From Clostridia bacterium (GTDB taxonomy: Bacteria > Bacillota > Sulfobacillia > SLMV01): a stretch of DNA of 36,497 bases. Position numbers and translations under genes: made by a program. Positions 15,757-36,425 of the stretch are shown one piece after another. Under the pieces are notes generated by a model, which saw only the letters and a list, made by a program, of their open reading frames with translations, searched no databases and was not told where the DNA came from. Location of the stretch: assembly GCA_003551365.1 (NCBI GenBank), contig PUMM01000057.1, positions 1-36,497 on the forward strand, in the 5' to 3' direction. How positions within the stretch are numbered: position 1 is the stretch's first letter; the number at the start of each line of letters is the position of its first letter.

Positions 15757-16479
15757 GTATGCCCGGCATGGGCGAATGCTGAGGGGTGAAAGTCCCCTGT
15801 GGGCCGTGGCCACGTAGGACCACTAGCTGAAGGCAAGGGTGCCCGCGGTGACGCGGGATCTGAAGGAAGTTGGAGGCAAAACCGCGACCCGTGGAGCACG
15901 AACCCTGGACGAGGCGTGACGGACTGGGCGAGTCTGCCAAACAAGACGAAGCCCCATATTGGCCGAAGGTTCGTTGCGTAAACAGCGCGGGTGTGCGGGG
16001 AAAGTATTCGCTCTTACCCGGGGAGGCCTGTCGACCCCGTCGGTGAGAACTGACAACCCGTGCTATGAGGTATGGCTGAGGCGGCAGGAGTCAGTAGACG
16101 TCATAGTGTGCAGGAGCAGTTATCGGGGTATGGAGGGGAGATTGAGGCACTGTCAACCGAAAGGGGCAGTTCCAGTTGGGCCCCACCTAATCCCTGTTGC
16201 TGAGCCCTGCGGAAGGACCGAACATGAACGAGAGGATGGAGTCCGTGAGTTCGCAGGATGCTCCCAGACAGCAGAAAACTCCCCATGGAGCCGACCTTCA
16301 GGAGGAGACGGTGAATCCGTCAGGGCCTGAAGGCGGGCCGAGTGCATCCCCGGCACGACTGGGAGAGCCATCCCGCGAGGTAGACTTGCTATTCGTCAAC
16401 GTGCATGAACCGCCGGATGCGGACCCGCATGTCCGGTGGTGCGGGGGAACGGCGGGGGCGACCCCGCCTTCTACCCGAT
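15757..16479 (+). mobile_element. Group IIC intron, ORF-deleted
   Basis: The RNA is recognisable along its length as a bacterial class C group II intron: 5' end GTATGCCCGGCATGGGCG, then GGGTGAAAGTCCCC, AAGGCAAGGGTG, GATCTGAAGGAAG, CGAAGCCC and CTTACCCGGGGAGG segments of domain I, which follow the Oceanobacillus iheyensis intron closely as I remember it. Domain V is intact at about 16408-16441, a hairpin with the class C triad CGC at 16411-16413 and a two-base bulge. Domain VI follows (GGCGGGG/CCCCGCC), and the 3' end is CTACCCGAT. It lies 10 bases behind the frd operon terminator, the usual target type of this class. Only about 50-60 codons of the domain IV ORF remain, so it cannot move without a helper protein. 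Confidence 0.85.
16224..16400 (+). pseudogene. Remnant of intron-encoded reverse transcriptase (N-terminus only)
   Basis: Inside intron domain IV an ATG at 16224 follows GGAAGGACCGAAC and opens a frame that runs straight into domain V. Its polar N-terminal stretch (MNERMESVSSQDAP...) resembles leader segments of some intron proteins, but no reverse transcriptase, maturase or endonuclease motif is present. Most of a protein of usually 400 or more residues is missing, so I read this as a deletion remnant. Confidence 0.55.
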
Positions 16480-32414: not shown

Positions 32415-32605
32415 AATGCTCCTCTCCAGAGAGACGGATGTCACAGAATATCAGTTCAGTTCTCAGGTCACGTGATCAAGTCCACTCATCCACCCCGTAC
32501 GATGCGATGGAGGGGGTCGGGAACCCGAATTGTGGGCTCATCTCTGATGATATGGGGCGCAGTGCCCGCAGTCAAAGCTTCTGCCGGGAGAAAGGAGCAT
32601 CACAT
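32415..32605. other. Upstream region of the PLP enzyme gene
   Basis: About 190 bases. On the minus strand it should carry signals for the PLP enzyme gene, but no consensus promoter was seen. The nearest strong minus-strand promoter is in repeat copy A at 33264-33291. Confidence 0.3.
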
Positions 32606-32647
32606 ATGGCAGATCTGATCAGACAGGCAGCGTTACACGGTAGATGA
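32606..32647 (+). CDS. Possible 13-codon leader ORF
   Basis: A tiny frame (MADLIRQAALHGR) with a very good ribosome site, GAGAAAGGAG, eight bases before its ATG. Its TGA overlaps the ATG of the next frame at 32644 (ATGA), as in translational coupling. It could be a leader peptide or the start of a gene broken by a frameshift. No homology recognised. Confidence 0.3.
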   Translation: MADLIRQAALHGR

Positions 32648-32961
32648 ACAGATTGCCGCGGGACAGATTCCTGCAGGCACAGCCCCGGTTCGCCGTTCAC
32701 ATAGAGCATGCTATCACGGCGCCGCGGAGCCTTGAAGGTCACCTCACTGAAACGAGAGAGGTGCGTGGTGTGTTCGGCACGTGGGTGACAGAGATCAACG
32801 GTCCAATGATGGCATGGGAGACCGCGCCTGTCCTGGAGGCATCTGTGTCTGCAGTGGTCGACACAATGGTATTGGATCCCCTTTGCCGCACTACGGTGGC
32901 GAACCTGGCGCCGGCGAAAGGGTGTCGCATTCTGTTCGAAAGGGAGGTTGGTTGGGTGTGA
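32644..32961 (+). CDS. Hypothetical protein (weakly supported)
   Basis: A 105-residue frame with GC-rich third positions similar to neighbouring genes. It has no ribosome site of its own and would depend on coupling to the 13-codon frame that overlaps its ATG. No domain is recognised; composition is ordinary and there is no signal peptide or membrane segment. It may be a fragment of a decayed gene, given the gene-poor region and nearby transposase remnants. Confidence 0.25.
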   Translation: MNRLPRDRFLQAQPRFAVHIEHAITAPRSLEGHLTETREVRGVFGTWVTEINGPMMAWETAPVLEASVSAVVDTMVLDPLCRTTVANLAPAKGCRILFEREVGWV

Positions 32962-33092
32962 AACGTGGGATCCGTCCGCCGTATCCACCCCCACAGCGGA
33001 TAACCATGAAGTGGATGGCGGGCAAATTTCAGTTAGATTGTAGGTGCCGCATATGCGCCGTCGAAGTTGGCGAATGCTGGGCTTGGTGACGC

Positions 33093-33121
33093 AAAAGAAA
33101 AGCCGGCCCGCTCGGGGCCGG
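33093..33121 (-). terminator. Terminator of peptide unit, copy A
   Basis: On the minus strand: CCGGCCC / GGGCCGG (7 bp, five-base loop) followed by CTTTTCTTTT. It lies 17 bases after the peptide stop codon. Confidence 0.85.
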
Positions 33122-33126
33122 ACTCG

Positions 33127-33149
33127 CGTCCACTGCCTCACAGTGGACG
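33127..33149 (-). other. Hairpin overlapping the peptide stop codon, copy A
   Basis: Perfect 9-bp inverted repeat CGTCCACTG / CAGTGGACG with loop TGAGG; the stop TGA is in the loop. Its 3' arm (GGAC) could alternatively pair with GTCC at the 5' side of the terminator through a GCGA tetraloop, giving two exclusive folds. Confidence 0.7.
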
Positions 33150-33197
33150 TGAGATCAGCGACACCCGCCCATGGAAGAAGAACTTCCTCATCAACAT
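33138..33197 (-). CDS. 19-residue peptide MLMRKFFFHGRVSLISRPL, copy A
   Basis: A short ORF with an excellent ribosome site, AGGAGGTGAT at 33201-33210, seven bases before ATG. The peptide is basic, has three consecutive Phe codons (TTC) at positions 6-8, no cysteine and no membrane-length hydrophobic stretch. It is bracketed by its own promoter and terminator and is repeated identically in copy B. Possible roles are a leader peptide for attenuation, a secreted or signalling peptide, or a type I toxin-like peptide. None can be chosen from sequence. The next gene downstream on this strand is the PLP enzyme, about 680 bases away. Confidence 0.6.
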   Translation of the reverse strand: MLMRKFFFHGRVSLISRPL

Positions 33198-33207
33198 AAC
33201 ATCACCT

Positions 33208-33243
33208 CCTGACGGACGCGATATCATGCTGACTTCCGACAGG
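33208..33243 (-). other. Leader hairpin touching the Shine-Dalgarno, copy A
   Basis: CCTGTCGGA pairs with TCCGTCAGG (one T-T mismatch) in the leader. Its 3' arm takes up the first three bases (AGG) of the AGGAGG ribosome site, so it could modulate translation of the peptide. Confidence 0.45.
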
Positions 33244-33263
33244 CATCACCCTTTTCACCCACC

Positions 33264-33291
33264 ATTGTACTCACACATAGCGATGTGTCAA
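33264..33291 (-). promoter_or_regulatory. Consensus promoter with palindromic spacer, copy A
   Basis: Minus strand TTGACA (33291-33286), 16-base spacer, TACAAT (33269-33264). A perfect palindrome ACACAT-CGCT-ATGTGT (33273-33288) overlaps the -35 box and fills most of the spacer, a typical repressor operator position. This is the best promoter in the window. Confidence 0.75.
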
Positions 33292-33292
33292 G

Positions 33293-34164
33293 GAATCTGT
33301 CCGCAAGTCAACTGCTCCTCTCCACCGTCATGCGCTGTCCCCGGGTCACTGCGTGGGCAGCCCAGAGATCGGATCTTGCGTTCCGGGCATTGGCTGTAGC
33401 GCTGGGCTCCATGTGCCGTTGCTGGCACAGTTCTCCCAGGGGAGACAACGCGGTTCATCGGGATGAAAGCGCTGGCTCAACTGGGGTTTTCGGTGCAGCG
33501 GTCCGCCCCCGGGCCAGAGCATGAGCACATCCCAGAAGTCCCGGATTTTCTCTTCGGGCAGCTGATCAACTCTCTGGAAGTGACCCACACTTACCTGGCG
33601 GAACAGACCGTGCCTGCATATAATGTACGATGGAGCGGCAAGCCTGCTTTGCCAGCAGCTTGAGATCGATCAAAATCAGGGCTTTTTGCCAAAATAACGC
33701 AGGTCTCATTTGATGTGAAGTTGCTCGAATTATCTGGCGCCGGGAGGTCTGCTGCAACTGGCAGGGGATCCCCGGGATCATGCCAGCGGTGGTTGATCCG
33801 GCGCGGGATGGTGTGGGTGTCGCGCTAAACGCCGATCCCCGAGCGGTTGCACAGATAGTTAAAGCGCCCGTCCGGATTTGCTGACCTGCAGACTCCGTGC
33901 CCCCGATATCCATTTCCGCCCATTAGATGTCCCGATGTCAGTTGTGTCGGTATGGAGTGCAGGAGAGGGTGTGGATGAGGCGCTCGATGCACGGCTGTGG
34001 ATGGCTACATTGCATCTCGCTGGTACGAAGCACGCAACTGTAACTATCAGTAGGGTTTGCGGCGACAGAGTGCCGGGTGGATTTGCTCCTGCAGGATATG
34101 GGAGATTTGGCCTTTCGATAAGACCAGATGCACCTGCATCGATAGGAGCAGAGAGACGGGCGAA
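33293..34164. other. Region between the two repeat copies
   Basis: About 870 bases without a convincing gene. A minus-strand frame at 33346-33588 begins with HFQRVDQLPEEKIRDFWDVL, which looks protein-like, and another at 33566-33913 includes ALILIDLKLLAKQA; neither has a good ribosome site and they may be decayed gene pieces in two frames. A TATAAT at 33619-33624 (plus strand) lacks a matching -35. Confidence 0.35.
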
Positions 34165-34193
34165 AAAAGAAAAGCCGGCCCGCTCGGGGCCGG
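34165..34193 (-). terminator. Terminator of peptide unit, copy B
   Basis: Same CCGGCCC / GGGCCGG stem and CTTTTCTTTT tract as copy A, here extended by two more T on the transcript side. Confidence 0.85.
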
Positions 34194-34209
34194 ACTCGCG
34201 TCCACTGCC

Positions 34210-34269
34210 TCACAGTGGACGTGAGATCAGCGACACCCGCCCATGGAAGAAGAACTTCCTCATCAACAT
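34210..34269 (-). CDS. 19-residue peptide MLMRKFFFHGRVSLISRPL, copy B
   Basis: Identical in every codon to copy A, with the same AGGAGGTGAT site; the spacer to ATG differs by one base (ATT instead of GTT after the site). Downstream on the minus strand there is no gene for almost 1.8 kb, so copy B does not look like a leader for a neighbouring gene. That weakens a pure attenuator model and favours a role for the peptide or the RNA itself. Confidence 0.6.
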   Translation of the reverse strand: MLMRKFFFHGRVSLISRPL

Positions 34270-34335
34270 AATATCACCTCCTGACGGACGCGATATCATG
34301 CTGACTTCCGACAGGCATCACCCTTTTCACCCACT

Positions 34336-34363
34336 ATTGTACTCACGCATAGCGATGTGTCAA
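34336..34363 (-). promoter_or_regulatory. Promoter of peptide unit, copy B
   Basis: TTGACA, 16-base spacer, TACAAT as in copy A. The palindrome is ACACAT-CGCT-ATGCGT here, broken by one substitution, so binding of a symmetric repressor may be weaker than at copy A. Confidence 0.72.
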
Positions 34364-34412
34364 GAGGCCCCGCTTCGCACTCCTTGCCGTTTCCTTCCGC
34401 AATTATTGAGTT

Positions 34413-34750
34413 GTCCGTCCCCGCCTCAGGTATCTGCAAGGTGTGTGAAAACATCAGCCGCAGACCCAGCAATTTCAACAGCTGCTGGGGAACCGGGATG
34501 CTATCAAACAGTTGCCTGTTTCCGACTACCATCATGTGCGTGAGAAGCCGCAGGATGCTGAACACCAGAGGCGTCGCGAGAAAGAATGGACCAGTGCCTC
34601 CACCCGCTGGGGCTTTGTCATGTACACTGGGCCCACAATCCTGGGATCCTCGATGAAGGCGAAGTGCCCAGCGCGCTCCGTTTTGGCGCTGGACGACCAT
34701 GTCGTGCCCGACCCATGCATTGGGGGCAGAATTTTTTGCCCTTCGATCAT
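34413..34750 (-). pseudogene. Decayed IS1634-type transposase, C-terminal fragment
   Basis: Two overlapping minus-strand frames join into one transposase-like C-terminus. The first gives FAFIEDPRIVGPVYMTKPQRVEALVHSF, close to the FxFLKDPxxVxPVFLKxPxRVEAL segment of IS1634-family transposases. The second continues after a one-base shift near 34585 with FLATPLVFSILRLLTHMM and a tail QQLLKLLGL. No N-terminal part is present. It is therefore a frameshifted remnant. It lies between repeat copy B and the lipoprotein gene. Confidence 0.6.
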
Positions 34751-35389
34751 TCAACTCAACACAACGACCATACCGATCACTATCGTGATCACGCCAAACG
34801 CCCTGGTGACGCCCAGAAATGCGTCACTGGGTTCGGAGTCCTTCATCTTCCAGCCGAGCTGCAGGAAGAAGGCCAGATGTGGGTTGATCACCGAAACCAA
34901 TCCTCCCCCGATAAGTAGCAGGCCGGCAGCAAAACGAAGTCCGCTGGCACTGTCAGATGAGGGTTGAGGTTCGGGAGCTCCGTAGACCAGTTCTCCGAGA
35001 TCATCCACCCGGTTCCAGTCTGCAAACGATGTTTGGATTCCCGGTTCCGAGCTGCCACTGGTAGATGAGTCTTGATGTCTTCGCGTAAGCGTGCGGCCGT
35101 CCGGGAATTTCACGGCATAATTTCGCGCCGAACCCGACAGGTAGTATTCCTCTGCGGTTGTGCCATTTTCGATGTACACCGCATAGTCCCATGATTCTTC
35201 CTCTACTGAAACGACGCGCAGCTGTGTGTCGCCTCCAGATGCCCGAAAAACCCTGTCGTCTCCTTCTGCGGTCGCGAGTGAGTACACCTCGCCGTCGAAG
35301 GTTATGGCAGGATCCTCAGATGAACAGCCCGCGCCCAGCATGAGGATTGCGGCAATGATCAGGGTGAAATGAGGTTTGCGATCTATCAT
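34751..35389 (-). CDS. Putative lipoprotein with DUF6199-like C-terminus
   Basis: A 212-residue protein that begins with a lipoprotein signal peptide (basic start, hydrophobic LIIAAILML, then LGAGC with Cys22 as lipidation site). The middle is a small beta-rich extracellular domain followed by a Ser-rich linker. The C-terminus holds two hydrophobic segments around NPHLAFFLQLGWKMKDSEPSDAF, which resembles the DUF6199 pattern of short Firmicute membrane proteins (NPxxxWxxxYGWRxKDAEPS). Function unknown. ATG 35389 is five bases from GGAGG; the adjacent ATG at 35392 is only two bases away. The frame stays open to 35443 without another site. Confidence 0.75.
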   Translation of the reverse strand: MIDRKPHFTLIIAAILMLGAGCSSEDPAITFDGEVYSLATAEGDDRVFRASGGDTQLRVVSVEEESWDYAVYIENGTTAEEYYLSGSARNYAVKFPDGRTLTRRHQDSSTSGSSEPGIQTSFADWNRVDDLGELVYGAPEPQPSSDSASGLRFAAGLLLIGGGLVSVINPHLAFFLQLGWKMKDSEPSDAFLGVTRAFGVITIVIGMVVVLS

Positions 35390-36425
35390 CATTACCTCCA
35401 CAGCAGATGTATTACCTCGACGAGGCGTTTGGTACTGGCCCATAGTGAGTACAGCTTCATGTCAGCCTATCATCCCACCAGAAGCGGGTGCAATTTTGAC
35501 TTTGCTGCCGCCGTCGGAAAAAGGGGGTAAGGGGCTGTCTGAGAGCACGCAACGTCCCGAATTCATCCTGAATGCCGCAGTCTCAGTTGCTGCAGGGTTG
35601 TCTTAGGGCCAAGCAGTTTGCGCCTTTTAGCGAGCGCGCCGGGATGAGCAACGATAAATCGGGATACGAGGATACCTTGCAATCCATGCTGCAATAATCT
35701 TTGCAGTCTTCGAGCCGAGGGGCGTCCGTTGTGAGCTCAAAAAATGAGCACTACCGATCCACTGAAAGGCGTCGATTCCCGACGGGGGCAGGCTCTTCCC
35801 TTCGCTGTTGCGGGAAACATCCCTTTCTCCGGGGGGCTGTGTGCGGGTTTCCCCGTCGGCTGGTTCAGATGATTTTGCAGTGACAACCAGAGGATTCAGC
35901 ATGCCGTCGCCCCCCCCCGGGGGTGTGGGGGGATAATCGCACAGAGGGGTTATACGCTGAACGAGTATCAACCCATGCCGGATGCCAGTGAACTCCTGAC
36001 CGGCAGAATGGATGCCGTGATCAGAGAGTAATCGACCGAGGTACGGGGGCCAGAAAATGTGCGCGGAACTCACTCCGGTGCAATGTGCGTTACTCCCGGA
36101 TTCGTCTCAGATCTTGCGGACGTCATGTCTGCCGGCCCGGATGATGTGCGGCGCGCTCCACGGTCGCGGCATTATGTGCTTTGTTGTTAGGTTCGATGGT
36201 GTCTGGCGCTGTCCGCATCCGGCACCGGGATACCGACGAGAGAGTTCCCATCACCTGCCCATCGAATACCCATCTGCCGGACGGCGCGCGGCGGCACTTG
36301 CCACGCACTTTCCGCACCCTAATTTCGGCTGACCCAGAATAAATTGATTGTTGATTTTCCAGGTATTGCCTAGCTTTTCTCCTCCGTTTGTGCTATGGTC
36401 AGCTCGACGGGAGGAGGCGAGGCTT
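35390..36425. other. Long gene-free region
   Basis: About 1 kb. The longest frame (35627-36073, minus) has no ribosome site or motif. A run of nine C followed by five G at 35910-35923 can form a hairpin. The last 80 bases include a GGGAGGAGG ribosome site at 36410-36418 for the partial transposase gene. Otherwise nothing recognised. Confidence 0.35.

Follow-up and report, generated by a model that had tools for sequence, protein, structure and literature searches.

The window, as we call the whole stretch of 36,497 nucleotides that was analysed, carries on its minus strand two copies (A and B) of a 200-bp unit that runs from a promoter to an intrinsic terminator and encodes a 19-residue peptide. 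We tentatively read this unit, largely from its predicted folding, as a small mRNA, self-contained and duplicated, that keeps its peptide locked against translation and may work in the manner of tisB or aapA. An earlier note on this DNA had described the repeat, its sequence signals and the peptide; the present analysis adds a predicted fold that closes the RNA end to end, a Shine-Dalgarno sequence and AUG buried within that fold, and the specificity of the predicted structure for one RNA strand.

Two nearly identical copies with exact ends

33093..33292, minus strand: copy A, the unit from promoter through terminator (repeat alignment and genome search)
34165..34364, minus strand: copy B, the 200-bp unit (repeat alignment and genome search)

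Alignment confirmed two gap-free copies of 200 nt each, both on the minus strand with 1072 bp between corresponding positions, which are 99% identical and differ, as the earlier note had it, at three sites (cassette positions 18, 30, and 93). No further copy occurs in the 2.78-Mb assembly, and the two share a contig. The unit starts one base 5' of TTGACA, at a C common to both copies, and stops at the end of the terminator T-tract. Since the sequence on both sides of copies A and B was no more similar between them than shuffled sequence, the repeat really stops at the -35 box, with the C common to both copies, on one side and at the T-tract on the other, where its limits had already been placed. 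An ancient duplication with decayed flanks was rejected, as the flanks of the two copies could not be aligned. Such exact ends are compatible with a functional unit that moved or was converted, and equally with one on which selection acted.

Sequence signals and open reading frame

33264..33291, minus strand: copy A promoter, TTGACA-16-TACAAT (promoter scan)
34336..34363, minus strand: copy B promoter, TTGACA-16-TACAAT (promoter scan)
33288-33273, minus strand: copy A spacer palindrome, ACACATCGCTATGTGT (sequence)
34360-34345, minus strand: copy B spacer palindrome, one base altered (sequence)
33138..33197, minus strand: copy A ORF, 19 codons, MLMRKFFFHGRVSLISRPL (translation of DNA)
34210..34269, minus strand: copy B ORF, 19 codons, identical peptide (translation of DNA)
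33093..33121, minus strand: copy A intrinsic terminator and T-tract (terminator scan)
34165..34193, minus strand: copy B intrinsic terminator and T-tract (terminator scan)

The promoter reported earlier was found in both copies, as was the coding sequence of the peptide, and each terminator consists of a 7-bp G+C helix followed by the T-tract. The ORF is preceded by AGGAGGTGAT, a perfect 10-nt Shine-Dalgarno sequence located 3 nt 5' of the ATG, with its AGGAGG core 7 nt from the ATG. When both strands of the 36.5 kb were scanned, this sequence occurred only at copies A and B, correctly spaced in each. The encoded peptide is cationic, with a net charge of +4, and only mildly hydrophobic: its GRAVY is 0.43, rising to 1.02 in the most hydrophobic window of 11 residues. 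Its helical moment is 0.06, and it does not clearly contain a membrane segment.

The 16-bp palindrome between the -35 and -10 boxes (ACACAT-CGCT-ATGTGT) resembles an operator. It is exact in copy A, as had been claimed, and in copy B the difference at position 18 breaks one arm position (ATGCGT); no second promoter with the same palindrome was found elsewhere in the genome in a search allowing up to three mismatches. Starting instead at an in-frame ATG further upstream (33227-33138 and 34299-34210, minus strand) would give a peptide of 29 residues, MISRPSGGDVMLMRKFFFHGRVSLISRPL, with ISRP at both ends; these residues correspond to a 13-base internal near-repeat (11/13 identical), which could pair alternatively with RNA positions 126-133.

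A predicted transcript closed from end to end

33093..33256, minus strand: copy A predicted transcript, 164 nt (folding; transcription start inferred)
34165..34328, minus strand: copy B predicted transcript, 164 nt, with the structure and energy of copy A (folding)
33190..33233, minus strand: copy A hairpin burying the Shine-Dalgarno sequence (33210-33201) and AUG, a 16-bp helix with a 3-bp tip, -27.6 kcal/mol (folding)
34262..34305, minus strand: copy B hairpin burying the Shine-Dalgarno sequence (34282-34273) and AUG, the A/G difference still pairing with U (folding)
33123..33153, minus strand: copy A hairpin spanning the stop codon (folding)
34195..34225, minus strand: copy B hairpin spanning the stop codon (folding)

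The transcription start was placed 8 nt after the -10 box, at unit position 37, and the transcript was taken through the T-tract. The whole 164-nt RNA was predicted to adopt a single closed shape (-92.3 kcal/mol, z -8.9), and 0/200 shuffles were as stable. In this prediction the two ends of the transcript are paired, 5' GAAAAG with 3' CUUUUC, closing the entire fold, and a 13-bp outer helix (RNA 7-19 with 88-100) encloses a small hairpin over the Phe codons and a 16-bp helix (RNA 24-39 with 52-67, plus the 3-bp tip, with five G-U pairs) that contains the Shine-Dalgarno sequence and the AUG. What had been called a leader hairpin does exist as a helix and is actually this 16-bp element holding the start site; the stop-codon hairpin and terminator described earlier were both recovered. 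The sole difference between the copies within the transcript, G57 to A57, lies opposite U34 and keeps the pairing, which as a single difference is no test of covariation.

Taken together, the 13-bp and 16-bp helices comprise 29 pairs, 11 of them G-U. Owing to these G-U pairs, domain 1 folds strand-specifically: as minus-strand RNA it reached -51.5 kcal/mol (z -6.9), compared with -17.5 kcal/mol (z -1.2) for its complement. With this strand bias the structure looks selected as RNA rather than as a DNA palindrome, and the bias, seen in folding models, is the strongest evidence that the minus-strand RNA has been kept.

The unpaired probability of the start codon was near 0 in the predicted full-length RNA. 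According to the model, opening the initiation region of the full-length RNA would cost about 30 kcal/mol. With the 3' end trimmed the cost would be 28 kcal/mol, but trimming of the 5' end to RNA position 36-44 would lower it to about 9-14 kcal/mol. Because the upstream arm is transcribed before the Shine-Dalgarno sequence, the lock can form during transcription. An RNA thermometer was rejected, as the predicted hairpin remains closed at 70-80 °C and the amino-acid composition of the window's proteins suggests a growth optimum near 45 °C. A switch pairing of GGACGCGA (RNA 126-133) with UCGCGUCC (36-43) came out 28 kcal/mol less stable than the main fold and is only noted here.

Search for relatives

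No described family was recognised, in agreement with the earlier note: Rfam gave no match above the gathering score (best 20.4 bits vs 50 needed). BLASTN with the unit found no relative in seven other genomes of the family or in 397 other genomes of the phylum; of the matches obtained (E 0.001-0.8), those viewed in context were short and mostly inside coding sequence, and were attributed to chance. A covariance model found none in 151 genomes of the class and 398 of the phylum (stricter filters). The peptide search of 398 genomes gave a best foreign E value of 0.024 per genome, which is at chance level, and its best eight matches were rejected for want of a Shine-Dalgarno sequence or matching layout. 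A search with degenerate peptide patterns was extended to one genome per species for 84,980 species, plus viral contigs. There, the pattern KFFFHGRV occurred at 22 loci, with no comparable stand-alone ORF and none fitting the RNA model, and two MLMRKFF sites in viral contigs were set aside as alike each other and unlike the unit. The nucleotide, covariance-model and peptide searches that had been proposed as checks thus returned nothing beyond copies A and B, and with no relatives found, comparison between genomes speaks neither for nor against coding by the ORF or covariation in the RNA.

A proposed locked message or a non-coding RNA

In the reading that we favour, each copy would be an independent small gene, whose strong sigma-70-type promoter would drive synthesis of an RNA of about 164 nt ending at its own terminator. 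Upon synthesis, the upstream arm (RNA nt 24-43) would capture the Shine-Dalgarno sequence and start codon of the 19-residue basic peptide, and the 13-bp outer helix and the pairing between the 5' end and the U-tract would secure the fold. With its start site captured in this way, the full-length RNA would be a silent message, and the peptide would be made only once a nuclease, a helicase or a pairing RNA had removed or opened the 5' arm. The analysis shows the duplication, its limits, the sequence signals, the lack of relatives in the collections examined, and that the predicted structure is specific for one strand. We infer that the unit is transcribed from the proposed start point, that its message is translated after such an activating step, and that the peptide may have a toxic or signalling activity.

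The main rival is that the copies are twin non-coding sRNAs, in which the folded RNA is what functions, through protein binding or target pairing, and the ORF and the Shine-Dalgarno-like run are incidental or vestigial. We consider this possible but doubtful. It would account for the extreme RNA-level structure over the whole transcript, for the almost complete occlusion of the start site in the predicted fold, and for a peptide with neither recognisable relatives nor a clear membrane segment; indeed, the modelled initiation block may be so strong that the ORF is never used. However, a perfect 10-nt Shine-Dalgarno sequence at ideal spacing from an ATG, and nowhere else in 36 kb, is unlikely to be an accident, and the predicted fold leaves few single-stranded seed regions.

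Extending the locked-message reading, the unit might found a new family of small messages that silence themselves, in a lineage that is under-sampled: the fully closed RNA would keep its cationic 19-residue peptide in untranslatable form, without an antisense partner, and release it only when the 5' arm was cleaved or remodelled; we regard this broader proposal as unlikely, if conceivable. If made and locked as predicted, the RNA would represent a toxin-like or dual-function small message outside the well-studied groups, resembling no catalogued family and apparently lacking an antisense RNA, and the combination of a strand-specific fold with a well-placed but buried ribosome-binding site would expose genes that sequence searches miss.

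Mobility of the unit

It is improbable that the 200-bp unit is a tiny mobile or converting element, moved or copied as DNA with its contents as passengers. Such an element would explain exact shared ends within unrelated flanks, duplication within 1 kb and absence from the relatives searched, but only two copies exist in 2.78 Mb, both of them local, whereas a mobile mini-element would be expected in several copies scattered over the genome, with repeats at their ends or duplicated targets. No target-site duplication was seen when the flanks of A and B were compared, the unit has no terminal inverted repeats as DNA, and, because domain 1 is rich in G-U pairs, it offers no DNA hairpin of matching strength. 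The phage collection gave no match and the plasmid collection only short chance matches. Of the mobile regulatory RNA/peptide cassette suggested earlier, the self-contained unit outside any described family stands, and its mobility gains little from two copies 1 kb apart on one contig.

Genomic setting and the attenuator hypothesis

34751-35443, minus strand: DUF6199 gene, 230 aa, with a C-terminal DUF6199 domain, E 7e-9 (domain search)
32575-32547, minus strand: cysK promoter-like site (promoter scan)
32444-31497, minus strand: cysteine-synthase-type gene, cysK (order on contig)
31403-30024, minus strand: M20 peptidase gene (order on contig)

Along the minus strand, the order is DUF6199 gene, copy B, copy A, cysK, and M20 peptidase gene, with gaps of 386 bp between the DUF6199 gene and copy B, 872 bp between copies B and A, and 648 bp between copy A and cysK. 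The ORFs tested in these gaps gave no family match above Pfam's cut-off; the statement that copy B has no gene close downstream thus held and applies to copy A likewise. A role of the unit as the cysK leader was rejected because of the 648-bp distance and the separate cysK promoter-like site.

A leader-peptide attenuator or its relic (for example Phe-rich, with UUC UUC UUC), which formerly controlled a downstream gene, is very improbable: its promoter, short ORF with a Phe run, stop hairpin and terminator follow an order resembling that of amino-acid attenuators, but the terminator helix forms in every fold that masks a ribosome position (at initiation, codon 8, codon 13, and stop), no mutually exclusive antiterminator and terminator set by ribosome position are evident, no recognisable gene follows within 648 and 872 bp, and an occluded ribosome-binding site would be unusual for the class.

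Apart from the two units, about 2.3 kb (32445-34750) lacks a recognisable gene, and some of its frames resemble decayed coding sequence. A relative of the DUF6199 protein was found in G002 (43%) and in none of the seven remaining genomes searched for it; five of these eight genomes belong to the family. The contig analysed here appears to be a native part of its genome, since the same-genus genome G005 has the cysK orthologue at 62% identity adjoining what reads as the same peptidase; in G005 the contig ends shortly upstream of cysK. The taxonomic order comprises only eight genomes, so sampling near the lineage is poor. Elsewhere, at 15842-16479 on the plus strand, Rfam group II intron pieces (RF02001, 133 bits; RF00029, 46 bits) span about 640 bp end to end and leave too little room between them for a reverse transcriptase, possibly marking an ORF-less or decayed intron.

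Comparison with known systems

The unit presumably resembles the Phe-type leader peptides pheL and pheM in its FFF run, its stop-codon hairpin and the nearby terminator; unlike them, it has no antiterminator and no downstream gene, and its ribosome-binding site is occluded.

The type I toxin messages offer closer parallels, since tandem duplication and occluded ribosome-binding sites have been reported for them (PMC6733600, PMC8309996, PMC4147584). In tisB, the 5' leader of the full-length message is structured, and translation depends on processing at the 5' end (PMC4147584); zorO, too, is a duplicated locus (PMC3919570). As in tisB/istR-1 (and dinQ and zorO), the peptide is short and, in the model, the start site becomes easier to open once the 5' arm is gone (9-14 kcal/mol instead of about 30); the unit differs in that no antisense antitoxin was found, the peptide is not clearly membrane-spanning and the sequence is unrelated. 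In aapA and hok, the 5' and 3' ends pair, the Shine-Dalgarno sequence is masked and the full-length message is translationally inert (PMC6733600). The unit matches aapA/isoA of Helicobacter and hok/sok in its predicted end pairing, sequestered Shine-Dalgarno sequence and inert full-length RNA, and departs from them in that no antisense RNA was found for it. Since a local helix does the occluding, trimming of the 3' end alone would give no release, unlike in aapA and hok.

The Ibs/Sib loci are multicopy. IbsC is strongly hydrophobic (GRAVY 2.3 vs 0.43 for the unit's peptide), and, unlike Ibs/Sib, the unit has no antisense promoter that we found. The length of the peptide is shared, the Ibs/Sib toxins also having 19 residues (PMC8309996).

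The plus strand of the unit has no promoter-like site at the standard threshold (the best weak sites matched 8/12, and a weak promoter may be present), and no sequence complementary to the unit's RNA was found elsewhere in the assembly. Unlike known type I toxins, the peptide is only mildly hydrophobic and not clearly membrane-spanning, and a message folded with its translation blocked was found in the predicted structure. Two findings kept the unit from being classed as a type I toxin-antitoxin system: the scans turned up no antisense promoter, and the cationic peptide does not clearly span a membrane. They also count against the toxin-like element suggested in the earlier note, but with the ribosome-binding site locked in the predicted RNA, that label still gives the nearest functional parallel. 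While it is not established that the unit is a type I toxin-antitoxin system, it is reasonable to say that it works like a locked type I message.
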